From Thermococcus sp. (GTDB taxonomy: Archaea; Methanobacteriota_B; Thermococci; Thermococcales; Thermococcaceae): a stretch of 64,000 bases of DNA. Where the stretch lies: contig NZ_JALUFF010000063.1 in NCBI RefSeq assembly GCF_027052235.1, forward strand, positions 1-64,000, in the 5' to 3' direction. The notes beneath the pieces were generated by a model. That model worked only from the letters and a program-made list of their open reading frames with translations, was not told the origin of the DNA and did not search any database. Positions 8,938 through 16,038 of this stretch are shown piece by piece. A program made the position numbers and the translations under genes. How positions within the stretch are numbered: the stretch's first letter is position 1; the number at the start of each line of letters is the position of its first letter.

Positions 8938-11430
8938 CTAATCGAGACCAAGCCACTTGACAAGTCCTAAGAGGAACTTGTGCGGGAGCTTCTCGTGGTG
9001 CGGATGAATCCTCACCGCGTAGTGCCAGCATGGGTCGCCGAGGTGCTTGAGGGCACTGCCCTCGTATGTGTAGAGCCATTCGTTCTCCCCGGCCTGCTCC
9101 GGATGCCTAAGCTCAACTATGTGGGGCTTCTCTATCTCGTATCCCCGAGCACGGACGCCGTAGTAGAGCTCCACCTTCACGTCATCGGGCCTGAGGCTGT
9201 CCAGGTAAACCCTGACCTCAAGCTTGCCGTCCTTGACGCTTGCCCCCCTAAGTTCGACCTTCGGCCACGCTGAGGTAACGCGGTCCTTCCATGCGGCGAT
9301 TTCCCTAGCCCCGCTGTAGTCGTCCCTGGTGAGCCAGATGTGGTTGCTCATTGCCTTTGAATAGAACTTGTCCATGTATTCCTTGACCATCCTGTGTGTG
9401 CTGAAGCGCGGGGCTATGCTCTTTATGCTCTCCTTCATCATGTAAATCCAGCGACTCCTGTTTTCATAGTAGGTTGGGATTACCTCCTCCTCAAGGAGTC
9501 TGTAAAGGCTTTCTGCGTCCTTTGCATCGTCCGCCTCGGTTTCGGGCTCGGTCGTTTCTTCACCGATAACCCAGCCGTTCTTGCCGTTGTAGCCCTCAAC
9601 CCACCAGCCGTCGTAGATGCTGACGTTTAGAACACCGTTCAATCCAGCTTTCATACCGCTCGTTCCACTCGCTTCAAGTGGCCTGCGCGGGTTGTTGAGC
9701 CAGACGTCAACGCCGGCAACCATCAGCCTTGCGCTACCCATGTCGTAGTTCTCCATGACGAATATCTTGCCCCTGAACTCCGGCATAAGGCTGACTTCAT
9801 AAACCCTCCGGAGGAACTCCTTACCGGCCTCATCCATCGGGTGCGCCTTTCCTCCGAAGACTATGTAGACAGGTCTCTCCGGGTTGTTGAGTATCTTCTT
9901 CAGCCTTTCGAGGTCGCTCAGGATGAGAGTTGCCCTCTTGTAGGTTGCGAAACGCCTGGCGAAGCCTATTATGAGGGCGTTCTCGTCCATAGCGGGTATC
10001 GGGTCGTCTATTCCTAACCTCTCGTTCCTCTCTATTGCCTTCCTCCTGAGGAGTTCAATGAACTGTCTCTTGGCCTCTAGATGAGCCTCCCAGAGTTCTT
10101 CATCAGGAATTCTCTCGACGGCGTACCAGATACCCTCGATGTTGGTGTGCTCACGCCAGACCTTGCCTATGTAGCGGTCGAAGAGCTTGCGCATCTCGTT
10201 GTGCACCCAAGTCATCGTGTGGACGCCGTTGGTTATGCCCTCGATGGGTATCTCGTTGAGCGGAACCCCCGGCCAGAGGTCCTTCCACATTTTCTTGCTT
10301 ACCTCGGCGTGGAGCTTGCTGACACCGTTGACGTAGCTCGAAGTTCTTATAGCCAAGAGAGTCATGTTGAGCTGATCTCCTTCGCGACCGAGTTCGAGGA
10401 GTTCTTCTCTCCCCTCAAGGAACTTTGAGAGCCTCTTCCTCACTTCCTCAATCGGAAACCTGTCGTGGCCAGCGGGAACGGGTGTATGAGTTGTGAATAC
10501 AGTTGTCCCCCTCACCAGACTTAGGGCTTCGGTGAAGTTGAGACCATCATCCATGTGCCAGGCTATCCTCTGGAGATTCGCAAAGGCAGGGTGCCCCTCA
10601 TTGAGATGAACGACACCGGGCTCAATTCCAAGGGCCTTGAGAAGCCTCATTCCACCTATTCCGAGAAGTATCTCCTGCTTTATCCTCTTGTCCATCTCGG
10701 CGTTGTAAAGGTAGTCGCAGATAGTCCTGTCGTCGGGGCCGTTCTCGGGAACGTCGGTGTCGAGGAGGTATATCCTCACGCGCCCCACCTTGACCTCGAA
10801 GGCTCTCGCGTAGACAATCCTGTCCTCTATTGGAACCTCAATCAGGAGTCTGTTGCCGTTCCTGTCGAGGACGGGCTTGAGGGGCATCTCCTCGGGTCTG
10901 TACTCGGGGAATATCTCCCTCTGCCTTCCGTTCCTGTCTATCTCCTGCCTGAAGTAGCCGTGCTTGTAGAGGAGGCCTATCGCTATAAACGGAAGACCGA
11001 GGTCGCTCGCGGTCTTGACGTGATCTCCTGCGAGGATTCCAAGGCCACCGGAGTAAATCGGGAGGCTCTTGCTTATGCCGTACTCCATGCAGAGGTAGAC
11101 TATCGGCTTGTCCCACTTGGGATAGTTGGTGGAGAACCACGTTGATTGGGGGTTCATATAGCTCTCGAACTGCTCCATAACGAGCTCGTAGAGGTTCATG
11201 AAGTCATCGTCCCTGAGGAGCTCCTTAAACCTCTCCCCGGGCGTGTCCAAGAGGAGCTTAACCGGGTTCTTGTACTCCCTCCAGTGCTCCGGGTCAATGC
11301 GCTCCCAGAGCTTCGTGGCCCTTCTGTTCCAGCTCCACCAGTAGTTGTAGGCCAAATCCGCAAGTCCTTTCAGGGAATACGGAAGCTTCTTTCTTATTTC
11401 ATCCTGAGTGCAACGGAGGCTCTCGGCCAT
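8938..11430 (-). CDS. malP: Alpha-glucan (maltodextrin) phosphorylase
   Basis: Glycogen phosphorylase family enzyme that phosphorolyses alpha-1,4-glucans to glucose 1-phosphate, feeding glycolysis from starch or maltodextrin. The 830-residue length and the motif EASGTSGMKAGLNG, whose Lys594 should hold pyridoxal phosphate, place it in the archaeal/short bacterial group. N-terminal sequences LAYNYWWSWNR and YGISKSLPIYSGGLG fit that group. Start ATG 11430 follows GGTGATCG; the upstream GTG at 11439 is part of that site. A TGM-like operator at 11444-11460 lies between TATA box and ATG, suggesting repression when sugar is absent. Next to PEP carboxykinase on the same strand. Confidence 0.95.
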   Translation of the reverse strand: MAESLRCTQDEIRKKLPYSLKGLADLAYNYWWSWNRRATKLWERIDPEHWREYKNPVKLLLDTPGERFKELLRDDDFMNLYELVMEQFESYMNPQSTWFSTNYPKWDKPIVYLCMEYGISKSLPIYSGGLGILAGDHVKTASDLGLPFIAIGLLYKHGYFRQEIDRNGRQREIFPEYRPEEMPLKPVLDRNGNRLLIEVPIEDRIVYARAFEVKVGRVRIYLLDTDVPENGPDDRTICDYLYNAEMDKRIKQEILLGIGGMRLLKALGIEPGVVHLNEGHPAFANLQRIAWHMDDGLNFTEALSLVRGTTVFTTHTPVPAGHDRFPIEEVRKRLSKFLEGREELLELGREGDQLNMTLLAIRTSSYVNGVSKLHAEVSKKMWKDLWPGVPLNEIPIEGITNGVHTMTWVHNEMRKLFDRYIGKVWREHTNIEGIWYAVERIPDEELWEAHLEAKRQFIELLRRKAIERNERLGIDDPIPAMDENALIIGFARRFATYKRATLILSDLERLKKILNNPERPVYIVFGGKAHPMDEAGKEFLRRVYEVSLMPEFRGKIFVMENYDMGSARLMVAGVDVWLNNPRRPLEASGTSGMKAGLNGVLNVSIYDGWWVEGYNGKNGWVIGEETTEPETEADDAKDAESLYRLLEEEVIPTYYENRSRWIYMMKESIKSIAPRFSTHRMVKEYMDKFYSKAMSNHIWLTRDDYSGAREIAAWKDRVTSAWPKVELRGASVKDGKLEVRVYLDSLRPDDVKVELYYGVRARGYEIEKPHIVELRHPEQAGENEWLYTYEGSALKHLGDPCWHYAVRIHPHHEKLPHKFLLGLVKWLGLD

Positions 11431-11443
11431 CTCGATCACCCTG

Positions 11444-11520: not shown

Positions 11521-13395
11521 TTAGGAGCCCTCAAGGGCAAAAGGACTGATGTAGTCGCCGTACTTCTCCTTGGCCTCAAGCAGACGCTTCCGCTCTTCCT
11601 CCAGAACTCTGAAGAGCTCCTCCGGGACATCTCCAACCTTCTCGCGGTAAATCCCCTCAATCCTCTCTATCTTGGCCAGCAACTCGGGAACCCTTATCAT
11701 AAACTGCTTCTCGTAGTCCTCCCTGGTGTAGTCCTTGCCAAGGACATCCTTGAAGAGCTTCACGAGGTCGCGGTACCTCGGAATGTAACCTATCGGGGTC
11801 TCTATTGCATCGACGTCGTTGTGAACCCTGAGCTCCATCCACTTGAGCCACACCGCCTTGTCCAGCTTGTGGTTAAGCCACTGTCCGTTGTCGCGGAGGA
11901 AGTAGTTGACGGCGAATATCTTGGGGGCCTTCTTCAGCTTTCTGCCGAACTCAAGGTAGTTCCGGAGGTAGTCACCGAGGTGGACGCTCATGAAGTCGAG
12001 GATGGCCATCGGGTTGAAGGCCCTAACCCCTTCCTTTCCGAGCGTTGCCGCGGTCGTCTCGCTCTCAAGGGAAGCCCCCATCGTTATGACTCCGTGCTCC
12101 CAGTTGAAGGCCTCCCTAACCGGTGGCCATGTGTCGGCATCCCTTCCTCCGAATATCATTCCGCCAATTTCAACACCGCAGGGGTTCTCCAGAGCCTCCA
12201 AATCGGCGTTGGGGAAGTGCTCAAGAGAAACGGTGAAGCGGGCGTTCTTGTGGCTGGGCGGTATCTCGTTGCCCTCTTCATCTTTCTTGCCTCTCCACCA
12301 CTTTCCGCTGTGGTTTTCGCCCTCGTCTGGAATCTCAATCCCCATGTCGTTCCAGTAGGGCTTTCCGTCCTTCACCAGAACGTTCGAGAAGATTATCTCA
12401 ACCGGCGAGTGGAGAACCTGCCAGATTATAGGGTCGTCCTCCGGGTTTACTCCCTGGATTATGCCGAAGACACCCTTCTCTACGTTCGCTCCTCTGGCCA
12501 CTCCGTTGACCGGAAGGATGAAGCTCAGGTCATCGCCGACTATGTTCTCCCACGGTATCATGGCAGTTGAGGTCTTTCCGCACATGCTCGGGTATGCCCC
12601 TGTGAAGTAGGTCTTCCTGCCGTGTGGACCGTTCACTCTCATTAGAAACATGTGCTCGCTGAGCCAGCCCTCCTCGACGGCCCTCTTGATCGTAAGGCGG
12701 AAGGCGAGCTTTTTGAGGCCTATCGTGTTCCCGCCGTACTGGGTGTTAACTGAATAAACAGTCTCATCCTGAAGGTCGATGTATATCCTCCTCTTATCGA
12801 GGTTCTTGCTCGTCTTCCTCTCGTCCAGCTCTCCGGCGGAGTGAACGAAGCGGAAGAACCTAGCCTGTCTCCCCAATCTCTTGAACTCCTCGTAGCCCTT
12901 CCTGTAAAGGATGAACTCGGAGTGGGCAACGTAAGCGGAATCGGTGAGCTGAACGGCAGGAATCGTGAAGATTGAGTTTTTAGGCCCTAAAACGAAGAAG
13001 CAGACGAAGAGCTCCTTGCCCTTCATGATACCCTTCATGAGCTCGCGTATCTCCTTCAGGCCTTCGTCCCTGTCCTTGGTGTTGATGTAGGGGAGCTTCT
13101 TTCCGCCCGGCAAAAGGGTTGCGGTGTTGGCCTTGTCCCGAGCTTGGTCGTAGTAGTTGTCGTAGTGGACGGTGTGGTTCGGCGTTTCGAGCATCTTCTC
13201 TTCTCCATAGTAGAGGGCCTTCCAGCGGACATACTGCTCGTCCTCCTCGCTGTCGGTGCAGACGAAGACCCTCTCGGGTTCAAGCCATCCAATCCACTCC
13301 GCCAGAAAAGCATGCAACTCGGGGTTGTCTATGGCCTTTATCTTCTCGAACTGCTCTTTGTCGAGGAGCTTCTCAAGCCTTTCGAGGGGTTCCAT
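11521..13395 (-). CDS. pckG: Phosphoenolpyruvate carboxykinase (GTP)
   Basis: Converts oxaloacetate and GTP to phosphoenolpyruvate, CO2 and GDP, linking C4 acids to gluconeogenesis; in Thermococcales it may also run toward oxaloacetate. The 624-residue length suits the GTP-dependent family. The active-site P-loop is SMCGKTSTAM (Lys274, with the family's reactive Cys two residues before it), followed by the metal-binding GDDLSFI. GRDADTWPPVREAFNW is another family block. Start ATG 13395 follows GGAGGCGAT. Its promoter faces the divergent sugar nucleotidyltransferase gene. Confidence 0.97.
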   Translation of the reverse strand: MEPLERLEKLLDKEQFEKIKAIDNPELHAFLAEWIGWLEPERVFVCTDSEEDEQYVRWKALYYGEEKMLETPNHTVHYDNYYDQARDKANTATLLPGGKKLPYINTKDRDEGLKEIRELMKGIMKGKELFVCFFVLGPKNSIFTIPAVQLTDSAYVAHSEFILYRKGYEEFKRLGRQARFFRFVHSAGELDERKTSKNLDKRRIYIDLQDETVYSVNTQYGGNTIGLKKLAFRLTIKRAVEEGWLSEHMFLMRVNGPHGRKTYFTGAYPSMCGKTSTAMIPWENIVGDDLSFILPVNGVARGANVEKGVFGIIQGVNPEDDPIIWQVLHSPVEIIFSNVLVKDGKPYWNDMGIEIPDEGENHSGKWWRGKKDEEGNEIPPSHKNARFTVSLEHFPNADLEALENPCGVEIGGMIFGGRDADTWPPVREAFNWEHGVITMGASLESETTAATLGKEGVRAFNPMAILDFMSVHLGDYLRNYLEFGRKLKKAPKIFAVNYFLRDNGQWLNHKLDKAVWLKWMELRVHNDVDAIETPIGYIPRYRDLVKLFKDVLGKDYTREDYEKQFMIRVPELLAKIERIEGIYREKVGDVPEELFRVLEEERKRLLEAKEKYGDYISPFALEGS

Positions 13396-13536: not shown

Positions 13537-14622
13537 ATGAAGGCAGTGATTCTGGCCGGGGGAAGGGGAACGAGGTTACTTCCGCTCACTGTCTATAGAC
13601 CCAAACCAATGATACCCTTCTTCAACAGACCCCTCATGGAGTACGCCCTTGAGAACCTGATAAAGGCGGGAGTTGACGAGGTTTACGTTCTGGTCGGCTA
13701 TTTGAAGGAGCGCATAATTGACTACTTCGGGGACGGGAGCAGGTGGGGAATTGAAATCCACTACTCCAACGGGGACAACATAAAGCTGGGAACTGCCGGG
13801 GCAACAAGGAAGGTTGTAAAGCACATGGATGATTCTTTCTTCGTGGTTTCGAGCGATGTCCTCACGAACCTCGACCTCAGGGCCCTCTACGAGTACCACA
13901 GGGAAAAGGGTGCCCTGGCGACAATAGCGCTGTCGAGGGTTGATGACCCAACCCAGTACGGAATAGCGATAATCGACGGTGAGGGAAGGATACTCCGTTT
14001 TAAGGAGAAGCCCAAGCCGGAGGAGGCATTCAGCAACCTCGTAAACGCCGGCATCTACGTCTTTGAGCCAGAGACCTTCGACCTCGTCCCGGAGGGGAAA
14101 AACTTCGACTTCTCAAAGGACCTCTTTCCCCTAATGCTGGAGAACAGCCTGCCCCTGTACGGCTTTCCTTTCAGCGAGTACTGGAACGACGTTGGAAGGC
14201 CCTCCAGCTACCTTCAAGCAACGGAGGACGTCTTCCTCGGAAGACTCATCTTACCACAGATAAAAACCGAAACCCTCAAGGGCAACCTCGAATACGGAGG
14301 GGCGCTCTTCACGGGAAGGAGATGCATTCTGAGAAGGCCTGAGATCAGGGGGTTTGCGGTGATAGGAGACGATGTGAAGATAGGGAGAAACGTTAAAATT
14401 GAGCGCTCCGTTATCTTCTCAGGGGCGACCATAGAGGAAGGAAGCGAAATCAGGGAGGCGATAATAGGAGAAAACGTCCACATAGGCAAGGGCGTCATAA
14501 TACAGCCCGGAAGCGTTATAGGGGATAACACCCTGATAGAGGATTTCAGCAAGATTGGCTCGAACGTCAAAATCTGGGTTGAATCAAGGATTGGAAGGGA
14601 AAGTATAGTACTCCCTGACTGA
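13537..14622 (+). CDS. NDP-sugar pyrophosphorylase (mannose/glucose-1-P nucleotidyltransferase)
   Basis: Transfers a nucleotide to a sugar 1-phosphate to make an activated sugar. The N-terminal nucleotidyltransferase fold shows MKAVILAGGRGTRLLPLT, then PKPMIPFFNRP and EKP. From about residue 245 the protein turns into hexapeptide repeats (for example IGDDVKIGRNVKIERSVI), a left-handed beta-helix. Specificity (GDP-mannose or UDP/dTDP-glucose) is not decided by what I see. ATG 13537 gives the canonical MKAVILAGG start; an in-frame ATG at 13525 would add four residues. The downstream gene starts five bases after the stop and encodes a degenerate phosphomannomutase, suggesting a functional pair. 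Confidence 0.9.
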   Translation: MKAVILAGGRGTRLLPLTVYRPKPMIPFFNRPLMEYALENLIKAGVDEVYVLVGYLKERIIDYFGDGSRWGIEIHYSNGDNIKLGTAGATRKVVKHMDDSFFVVSSDVLTNLDLRALYEYHREKGALATIALSRVDDPTQYGIAIIDGEGRILRFKEKPKPEEAFSNLVNAGIYVFEPETFDLVPEGKNFDFSKDLFPLMLENSLPLYGFPFSEYWNDVGRPSSYLQATEDVFLGRLILPQIKTETLKGNLEYGGALFTGRRCILRRPEIRGFAVIGDDVKIGRNVKIERSVIFSGATIEEGSEIREAIIGENVHIGKGVIIQPGSVIGDNTLIEDFSKIGSNVKIWVESRIGRESIVLPD

Positions 14623-14626
14623 GGTG

Positions 14627-15340
14627 ATGAAGGTGGAGGTGTACTACTCCCAGAGGTTTAACCCCGAGGAGCTTGCCCTTCTCGGAAGGGCCATAGGAAC
14701 GGTCTCCCACGGCACGATAGTGGTCGGAAGGGACGGAAGGGCCATATCAAGGTACGGAAAGAGGGCAATGGTAGTGGGCATAGTGAGCACGGGCTCCACA
14801 ATAATGGACGTCCGCCTAATTCCGCTGATAGCCCTGAAAGACTTCGCCCACAGAAAGGGCCTCCCGCTGGCCTACGTCTATTACTACAACGGCGTCCGCG
14901 TCTACGTCAGCGGGATAGACGTTGAGGAGATAGAGACAATCCTAGAAAGCAGGAGCTTCATAGAGGCCCATCCCAACGACATAGGTGCGACGGTCTATTA
15001 TCCCAACGCGCTGGACGACTTCCTCCACGAAGTCTTCAAGCACTACAACTTCAAGGTCGGGGGTAAGGCCCTCGTCGATGCCATGAACACGCCGGCGGTG
15101 CTCTTCTTCCCGCGCATGAGCGACCACTTCGGCTTCGAGGTCGAGCTGATGAACGACATGATGACAAGCTACCTCCCGCCCAAGCCCAAGGAGGTATTCC
15201 TCCACAAGCTGGCCAAGGGGGACTACACCTTCGGCCTCAGGTTCCGGCCGGAGGGAATCGTCGAGTTCCACCACAGGGGCGAGGAGAAGGAATTTGGAAG
15301 CATCTGGAAGCTCCTCGACCATATGAAGAGCGTCCTCTGA
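14627..15340 (+). CDS. Degenerate phosphomannomutase-like protein
   Basis: 237 residues that follow the first domains of the alpha-D-phosphohexomutase fold. [13 protein letters not shown] and the block [18 protein letters not shown] match domain I, and [14 protein letters not shown] with [19 protein letters not shown] matches the start of domain II. The active-site serine loop (TASHNP in the family) is missing between them, and so are the metal loop DGDADR and the later domains. It is about half the usual 450 residues. It should therefore not be a mutase on its own. Close coupling to the nucleotidyltransferase gene recalls fused bacterial proteins that carry both domains. Start could also be GTG 14633. 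Confidence 0.75.
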
Positions 15341-15417: not shown

Positions 15418-16038
15418 GTGGGAACGTTCATAGTGCTTGAGGGCATCGACGGTGCCGGCAAGTCAACGCAGGCCAGACTTCTGGCGGAGTGGTTTGAGGA
15501 GAGGGGATACGAGGTCGTCCTTACGAAGGAGCCGACGGATACGGCCTTTGGAAAGCTCATAAGGAGGCTCGTTCTCACCGGCGGGAGGGAAGGCATAATA
15601 GACGGTGCTAAAATAAGCCACGAGGCCGAGGCTCTCCTCTTCGCGGCCGACAGGGCGGAGCACGTTGACAAGCTGATAAGACCGGCTCTGCAGGCAGGAA
15701 AGGTCGTGATATCTGACAGGTACTTCTACTCCTCGCTGGCCTATCAGTGGGCCAGGGGGCTCGACTTGGAGTGGCTCATAGACCTGAACCGCTTCGCCGT
15801 GAGGCCCGATCTGGTGGTGCTCCTTGATTTACCCGTGAGGGAGAGCATGAAAAGGCTCAGGAGCAGGAGGATAAAGAGCGAGTTCGACAAGATATTCGAG
15901 CTCCAGAAGAGGGTCAGAGAAAACTACCTGAAGCTCGCCGAGATGTTCCCGGAGATTAAAATAGTGAACGCCCTCGACGACGTTGAAACCGTCCACCAGC
16001 AGGTTGTCGCCCTCGTGGAAACCTTGCTGGGAGAATAG
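15418..16038 (+). CDS. tmk: Thymidylate kinase
   Basis: Phosphorylates dTMP to dTDP with ATP. The P-loop is GIDGAGKST (residues 9-17), followed by [11 protein letters not shown] for substrate binding, [12 protein letters not shown] (DRY motif) and a lid region RLRSRR. The 206-residue length fits. GTG 15418 is chosen because GGAGGTG lies seven bases upstream; the open frame to 15379 would run through the TATA-to-ribosome-site region (TATA CTTATAAAC at 15361). It ends three bases before the tRNA-Thr gene on the other strand. Confidence 0.95.

Follow-up and report, generated by a model that had tools for sequence, protein, structure and literature searches.

The window, as we call the whole stretch of 64,000 nucleotides analyzed, carries at positions 13537..14622 of the forward strand a gene (NT) for a sugar-1-phosphate nucleotidyltransferase. 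Its frame is intact from the ATG at 13537 to the TGA at 14622 and encodes 361 aa, comprising an NTP_transferase domain and a left-handed β-helix. A family search returned PF00483 (E 2.3e-56) plus the hexapeptide β-helix, and the GGxGTRLxPLT and PKPM signature was found in all 62 intact NT orthologues read. The closest solved relative of NT by sequence is 8x7s (E 5.5e-60), named UTP-glucose-1-phosphate uridylyltransferase, whereas the best NCBIfam model, mannose-1-phosphate guanylyltransferase, scored 255.7 bits against a cut-off of 440. Given this disagreement between a uridylyltransferase structure and a sub-threshold guanylyltransferase model, we assigned NT no single substrate. NT is followed on the same strand by the gene under study, gene 2 (14633..15340), which encodes a mutase-dead phosphomannomutase (PMM)-like protein consisting of phosphohexomutase domains I and II only. 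Next comes tmk (15418..16038, forward strand), presumably a thymidylate kinase gene, judging from its P-loop. The divergent neighbor on the other side (11521..13395, reverse strand) encodes what we take to be PEP carboxykinase (PEPCK), and the gene at 8938..11439 on the reverse strand is presumably that of an α-glucan phosphorylase, a name given from sequence.

The listed start of gene 2 is a GTG at 14624 or an ATG at 14627, with the stop at 15340. We consider GTG 14633 the probable start, yielding a product of about 235 aa, because many orthologues begin at the aligned codon and because, shortly before this GTG, a Shine-Dalgarno-like sequence, GAGGTGAT (14621..14628, forward strand), overlaps the NT stop codon. 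Where NT is present, it is probably co-transcribed with gene 2.

Gene 2 resembles the phosphohexomutases over half of their length. Its only Pfam match was PF02878 (E 1.5e-6, residues 10-70), TIGR03990 (archaeal GlmM) matched residues 7-196 (E 6.8e-16), and profile alignment placed residues 8-230 on residues 12-265 of a 453-residue mutase. An AlphaFold2 model was compact and confident (pLDDT 95.0, pTM 0.90). Its structural matches were phosphohexomutases, led by 9ix8 and 9du5 with Z 22.6 over 235 residues at 2.4-2.5 Å. The profile alignment, the model, and an alignment of 93 orthologues with mutases and with the fused bacterial modules described below agree that gene 2 comprises domain I and almost the whole of domain II. 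It thus shares the domain I and II fold of the α-D-phosphohexomutases (PF02878/PF02879; T. kodakarensis PPM 9ix8 and PGM 9du5, P. horikoshii 1wqa; 235 residues, Z 22.1-22.6), but it has none of their serine loop, DGDxDR metal loop, and domains III and IV. The Pfam search found neither PF02880 nor PF00408, which represent the last two domains. The [ST]xSHNP serine loop was present in 0 of 93 orthologues, being deleted in the alignment, and the DGDxD metal loop was likewise found in 0 of 93, with [RK]P[DEN]G standing in its place. SHNP and DGDxD were kept in 18 of 18 mutase controls, which had been picked by patterns that included DGDxDR and a loosened serine-loop motif. These results confirm the description in an earlier note on this DNA of a nucleotidyltransferase gene beside a PMM-like gene that is mutase-dead and lacks the later domains. 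That note had, however, credited gene 2 with domain I and early domain II; domain I stands, but domain II is nearly complete and has lost its metal loop.

The same note had pointed to bacterial proteins in which the two modules are fused and the PMM part is degenerate, and such proteins were found. The best plasmid matches of NT with gene lengths checked (L031, L032, and L034 by annotation, L033 by open frame) were 832-845 aa long and contained a PMM-like module. In a scan of one genome per species, the fused family occupied 80 loci in Campylobacterota, Deferribacteres, Elusimicrobia, NC10, Zixibacteria, and others. The fused proteins (about 830-845 aa; e.g., Sulfuricurvum WP_013449919.1 and Streptomyces WP_331730321.1) are annotated as sugar phosphate nucleotidyltransferases, and NT is 35-41% identical to them. 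Like gene 2, their PMM part lacks the serine and metal loops, which were lost in all 59 proteins read (55 of the 80 species-scan loci plus four plasmid sequences; the other 25 of the 84 sequences had no complete open frame by our filter). The fused proteins differ in being one chain and in keeping the domain III region, whereas Thermococcaceae with NT have two genes, the second without domain III. Between them, NT and gene 2 cover residues 1 to about 629 of the fused proteins. A model of an 835-aa fused protein had a pLDDT of 88.3, a pTM of 0.64, and a weak linker at residues 371-390; because of the last two features, its modules are not confidently docked. Among the literature matches listed, none describes a fused nucleotidyltransferase with a degenerate PMM part.

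The surroundings of the fused genes point to carbohydrate metabolism for part of the family. In 33 of the 65 loci whose downstream sequence runs to 900 nt or more, the fused gene is immediately followed by a GH57 gene. At L106-L146, L153, and others, it begins within a few bases and is often backed by an α-glucanotransferase-like GH57; this α-glucan operon occurs in Campylobacterota, Hydrogenothermaceae, and Deferribacteres. A gene resembling a true phosphohexomutase lies downstream at L149, L151, L152, L155, L164, L165, L166, L176, and L183 (Elusimicrobia and NC10 included), so at those loci the dead module does not replace a mutase. Based on the GH57, α-glucanotransferase, and mutase-like neighbors, we infer that part of the fused family works in hexose-1-phosphate and α-glucan metabolism. 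On a 118-kb Sulfuricurvum plasmid (L031, NC_014754.1), the fused gene lies beside phospholipase genes.

We also asked how the archaeal pair and the fused proteins are related. In a tree of three clades, from which the mutase rows L250, L259, and L267 had been dropped for short length or long branch, gene 2 and the fused PMM modules stood together against the mutases (support 97/92) if the root is placed among the mutases; the tree is unrooted and the gene 2 branch long. The gene 2 profile scores slightly better to mutases than to the fused PMM module. NT and the fused proteins formed no clade in a free tree, yet such a clade was not rejected (p-AU 0.143), and an outgroup tree was distorted by very long branches. 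An unfused bacterial NT, L294 (39%, 239 bits), scored within the range of the fused proteins (226-272 bits). Descent of NT from a fused protein is therefore only a possibility.

Gene 2 is a hallmark of one archaeal family. Its profile matched 93 of 94 Thermococcaceae genomes, spanning six genera, and 0 of 302 genomes outside the family; the sole Thermococcaceae genome without a match, G045, is 73% complete. Plasmids yielded no match to gene 2, and none of the 23 pattern matches among viral contigs was a relative. NT is less constant. Of the 93 gene 2 loci, 63 have an intact copy, two have one truncated by a contig end, five a decayed one, and 23 none, so that NT is missing or decayed in 28. 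Wherever NT is present it lies directly upstream of gene 2 (65 of 65 loci, including the two that are cut), always as a separate gene and never in one chain with it. Genome-wide, at a threshold of E <= 1e-60, an NT orthologue was found in 66 of 94 Thermococcaceae genomes (the copy in G051 is broken) and in 56 of the 74 near-complete ones. At that threshold none was found anywhere in 28 of the 94, including 18 of the 74, which argues that NT has not simply relocated. In G101, its place is occupied by an alcohol-dehydrogenase-like gene, read by eye as a threonine dehydrogenase gene.

The presence of NT has changed many times. Parsimony required 12 state changes on a neighbor-gene tree, at least 10 of them on well-supported branches, and 10 on the gene 2 tree, at least seven of which are forced by well-supported branches; these counts alone cannot separate gain from loss. 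NT debris lies directly upstream of an intact gene 2 at five loci (L072, L091, L093, L102, and L104), and NT occurs in each of the six genera; on both grounds we read the pattern as repeated loss. The gene 2 copy at L104 is the closest relative of that in the window (97%).

If gene 2 depended on NT, its constraint might be expected to follow the presence of its neighbor. The median pairwise dN/dS of gene 2 was 0.063 in NT-containing and 0.105 in NT-lacking pairs. Since dN/dS of tmk climbed in parallel, from 0.033 to 0.083, we do not read the rise as relaxation. The ratio of amino-acid distances between gene 2 and tmk was 1.18 with NT and 1.19 without it. NT-less branches account for 41.1% of tree length and 38.9% of gene 2 substitutions. 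No internal stop was found in the 93 orthologues, and none of 106 gene 2 sites tested branch-wise showed a rate shift after NT loss that survives multiple testing. Gene 2 is therefore constrained equally with and without NT. A candidate interface patch (positions 12, 31, 40, 142, and 198), conserved with NT and variable without it, was dropped: the branch-wise count over 106 sites had a best p value of 0.0034, the side facing away from the cleft showed no enrichment (Fisher p 0.37), and the independent-pair tests had only three to five pairs. Position 141 tracks NT state in most pairings of three independent pairs, a number too small for a test. The distances of NT covary somewhat more with those of gene 2 (partial r 0.66) than with those of tmk (0.50), which could be explained by coupling or by plain linkage.

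Taken together, retention in 93 of 94 genomes and equal conservation with and without NT indicate that gene 2 is under strong selection for a function independent of NT. The pairing of the two genes is real, though not obligatory. This bears directly on the proposal of the earlier note that NT and gene 2 make up a two-subunit nucleotidyltransferase, gene 2 being the subunit for regulation or assembly; the enzyme would be a split counterpart of the fused proteins, and its dead PMM part would sense a sugar phosphate. The invariable position of NT when present, the overlap of the gene 2 Shine-Dalgarno-like sequence with the NT stop, the tiling of the fused proteins, and the α-glucan operons in which fused genes occur are what such a subunit would lead one to expect. 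The pair also resembles GMPPB/GMPPA (7d72), a nucleotidyltransferase with a possible non-catalytic companion, where GMPPA has a regulatory role; that companion is a dead transferase, whereas the one described here is a dead mutase fragment and is not obligatory. Nearly every relative keeps gene 2 even where NT is gone, however, so gene 2 is probably not merely an NT subunit. The 28 of 93 loci that retain gene 2 without a working NT, the unchanged constraint, the lack of an interface-like rate shift that withstands multiple testing, and the undocked modules of even the fused protein all argue against a two-subunit enzyme as its obligate or main role. In addition, section 12 of PMC5247666 describes the Streptomyces nucleotidyltransferase SVEN_3972, leaving unstated whether it is fused, as unresponsive to the sugar phosphates tested. 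The earlier note had itself regarded a distribution of gene 2 independent of NT as decisive against its proposal, and such a distribution is what the 28 loci and the 18 near-complete genomes show. We therefore consider this explanation unlikely in general, while a complex of the two proteins is possible in species that keep NT. An argument from the opposite direction is that an NT paralogue might act as the partner of gene 2 where NT is lacking, which would count against NT independence; genome G000 has six further NTP_transferase matches.

The conservation of gene 2 itself gives some indication of what its function might be. Between 100 and 105 of 237 positions are near-invariant across the 93 orthologues, and these are concentrated in the loops of the former active-site cleft (37 of 52 cleft-loop positions vs. 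68 of 185 elsewhere; Fisher p 1e-5, with the cleft-loop set chosen by the analyst after seeing the AlphaFold2 model). Near-invariant polar sets, GRDGRxxSRYGKRA, FxEAxPxDIGATxYYPN, DxMNTPA, NDMMTSYxPPKP, and GxRFxPxG, are predicted to face the cleft, their side being taken from the secondary structure of the model. The explanation that we prefer, and to which we give an even chance, is that gene 2 encodes a Thermococcaceae-specific pseudoenzyme with a strongly conserved former active-site cleft that probably binds a phosphorylated metabolite and that acts independently of NT. Judging from the fold, the ligand would most likely be a hexose phosphate or a sugar nucleotide. Its role would then be metabolite-dependent binding or regulation, not mutase catalysis, and ligand binding would serve to regulate or scaffold a component that all Thermococcaceae share. 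NT would be an optional companion enzyme, converting a sugar-1-phosphate and an NTP to an NDP-sugar, that has been lost repeatedly; in species keeping both, the two proteins may associate, as the fused bacterial counterparts do covalently. We tentatively extend this to a fuller history, which we find rather doubtful as a whole: a metabolite-sensing pseudoenzyme, once the PMM part of a nucleotidyltransferase, lost the two domains at its end, became indispensable to Thermococcaceae in its own right, and survived its enzyme on several occasions; it may inform central carbon metabolism about the status of hexose phosphates.

One main alternative is that the remodeled cleft has acquired a new catalytic activity, with a nucleotide or sugar phosphate as a conceivable substrate; this too would account for the many near-invariant positions, including the polar sets on the cleft side. 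We judge this to be improbable, as the serine and metal residues of the mutases are gone, the domains that shut the mutase cleft, III and IV, are missing, and the family searches suggested no other enzyme family.

Alternatively, gene 2 might serve another neighbor, PEPCK or thymidylate kinase. In all 93 loci, gene 2 is directly followed by a tmk orthologue after a gap of 14-154 nt, and a PEPCK gene was within the fetched stretch in 79 of them. Nevertheless, PEPCK is absent from the fetched flank in all nine loci of genus g28. A T run and a TATA-like box lie between gene 2 and tmk in the window, where they appear from the sequence to set the two genes apart. A role for either neighbor is in our view very unlikely. 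The loss of two domains and both catalytic loops might suggest that gene 2 is in decay, as a relic of a mutase or fused protein; this is barely credible in light of its low dN/dS, its freedom from internal stops in 93 orthologues, its near-universal retention, and its confident, compact model.

Gene 2 can be followed into a model organism. In T. kodakarensis KOD1, only a 149-nt gap, without NT, lies between gene 2 and PEPCK, and the genome as a whole contains no NT orthologue (E <= 1e-60). The counterpart of the window PEPCK there is TK1405, identified as PEPCK in PMC11921379. Excerpts of PMC11940775 place TK1404 among four COG1109 genes of T. kodakarensis and list it as an annotated phosphomannomutase. 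According to the same excerpts, TK1777 is a phosphopentomutase, only TK1108 among the other three showed PGM and PMM activity, and the TK1404 product is reported, second-hand, to have neither. Based on its position beside TK1405 and its COG1109 membership, we infer that TK1404 is gene 2, the same gene as in the window but in a genome without an NT orthologue. Among the literature matches listed, only PMC11940775 mentions TK1404 by name. The phosphomannomutase annotation of TK1404 in a model genome misleads pathway reconstruction. More generally, the retention of a pseudoenzyme across a whole archaeal family whose members repeatedly lose its apparent partner is a natural experiment in telling genes "encoded together" from genes "needed together". 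T. kodakarensis, a genetically tractable species, is already without NT and thus allows the function of the mutase remnant to be studied apart from the transferase.

Finally, we searched the loci for the Thermococcales glycolytic motif, whose consensus is given as TATCAC-N5-GTGATA in excerpts of PMC4158304 and PMC4706686. With up to two mismatches, it occurs at 16 of the 23 loci where NT is absent, at seven of 62 with NT (upstream of NT), and at none of the five with NT remnants. Upstream of gene 2 in NT-lacking loci, for example at L062 and L047-L050, the motif precedes the codon that aligns with window residue 1 by 25-31 nt. The motif may regulate gene 2 or the divergent PEPCK gene; as it may equally serve the latter, we set it aside as evidence of gene 2 function. 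In a separate comparison, gene 2 of the window was 89-91% identical to that of L105 and L078, whose tmk is less similar to the window tmk than that of the KOD1 group, and only 81-82% identical to gene 2 of the KOD1 group. Set beside the similarities of tmk, PEPCK, and the phosphorylase, these values raise the possibility that the segment containing NT and gene 2 has been exchanged between Thermococcus species.
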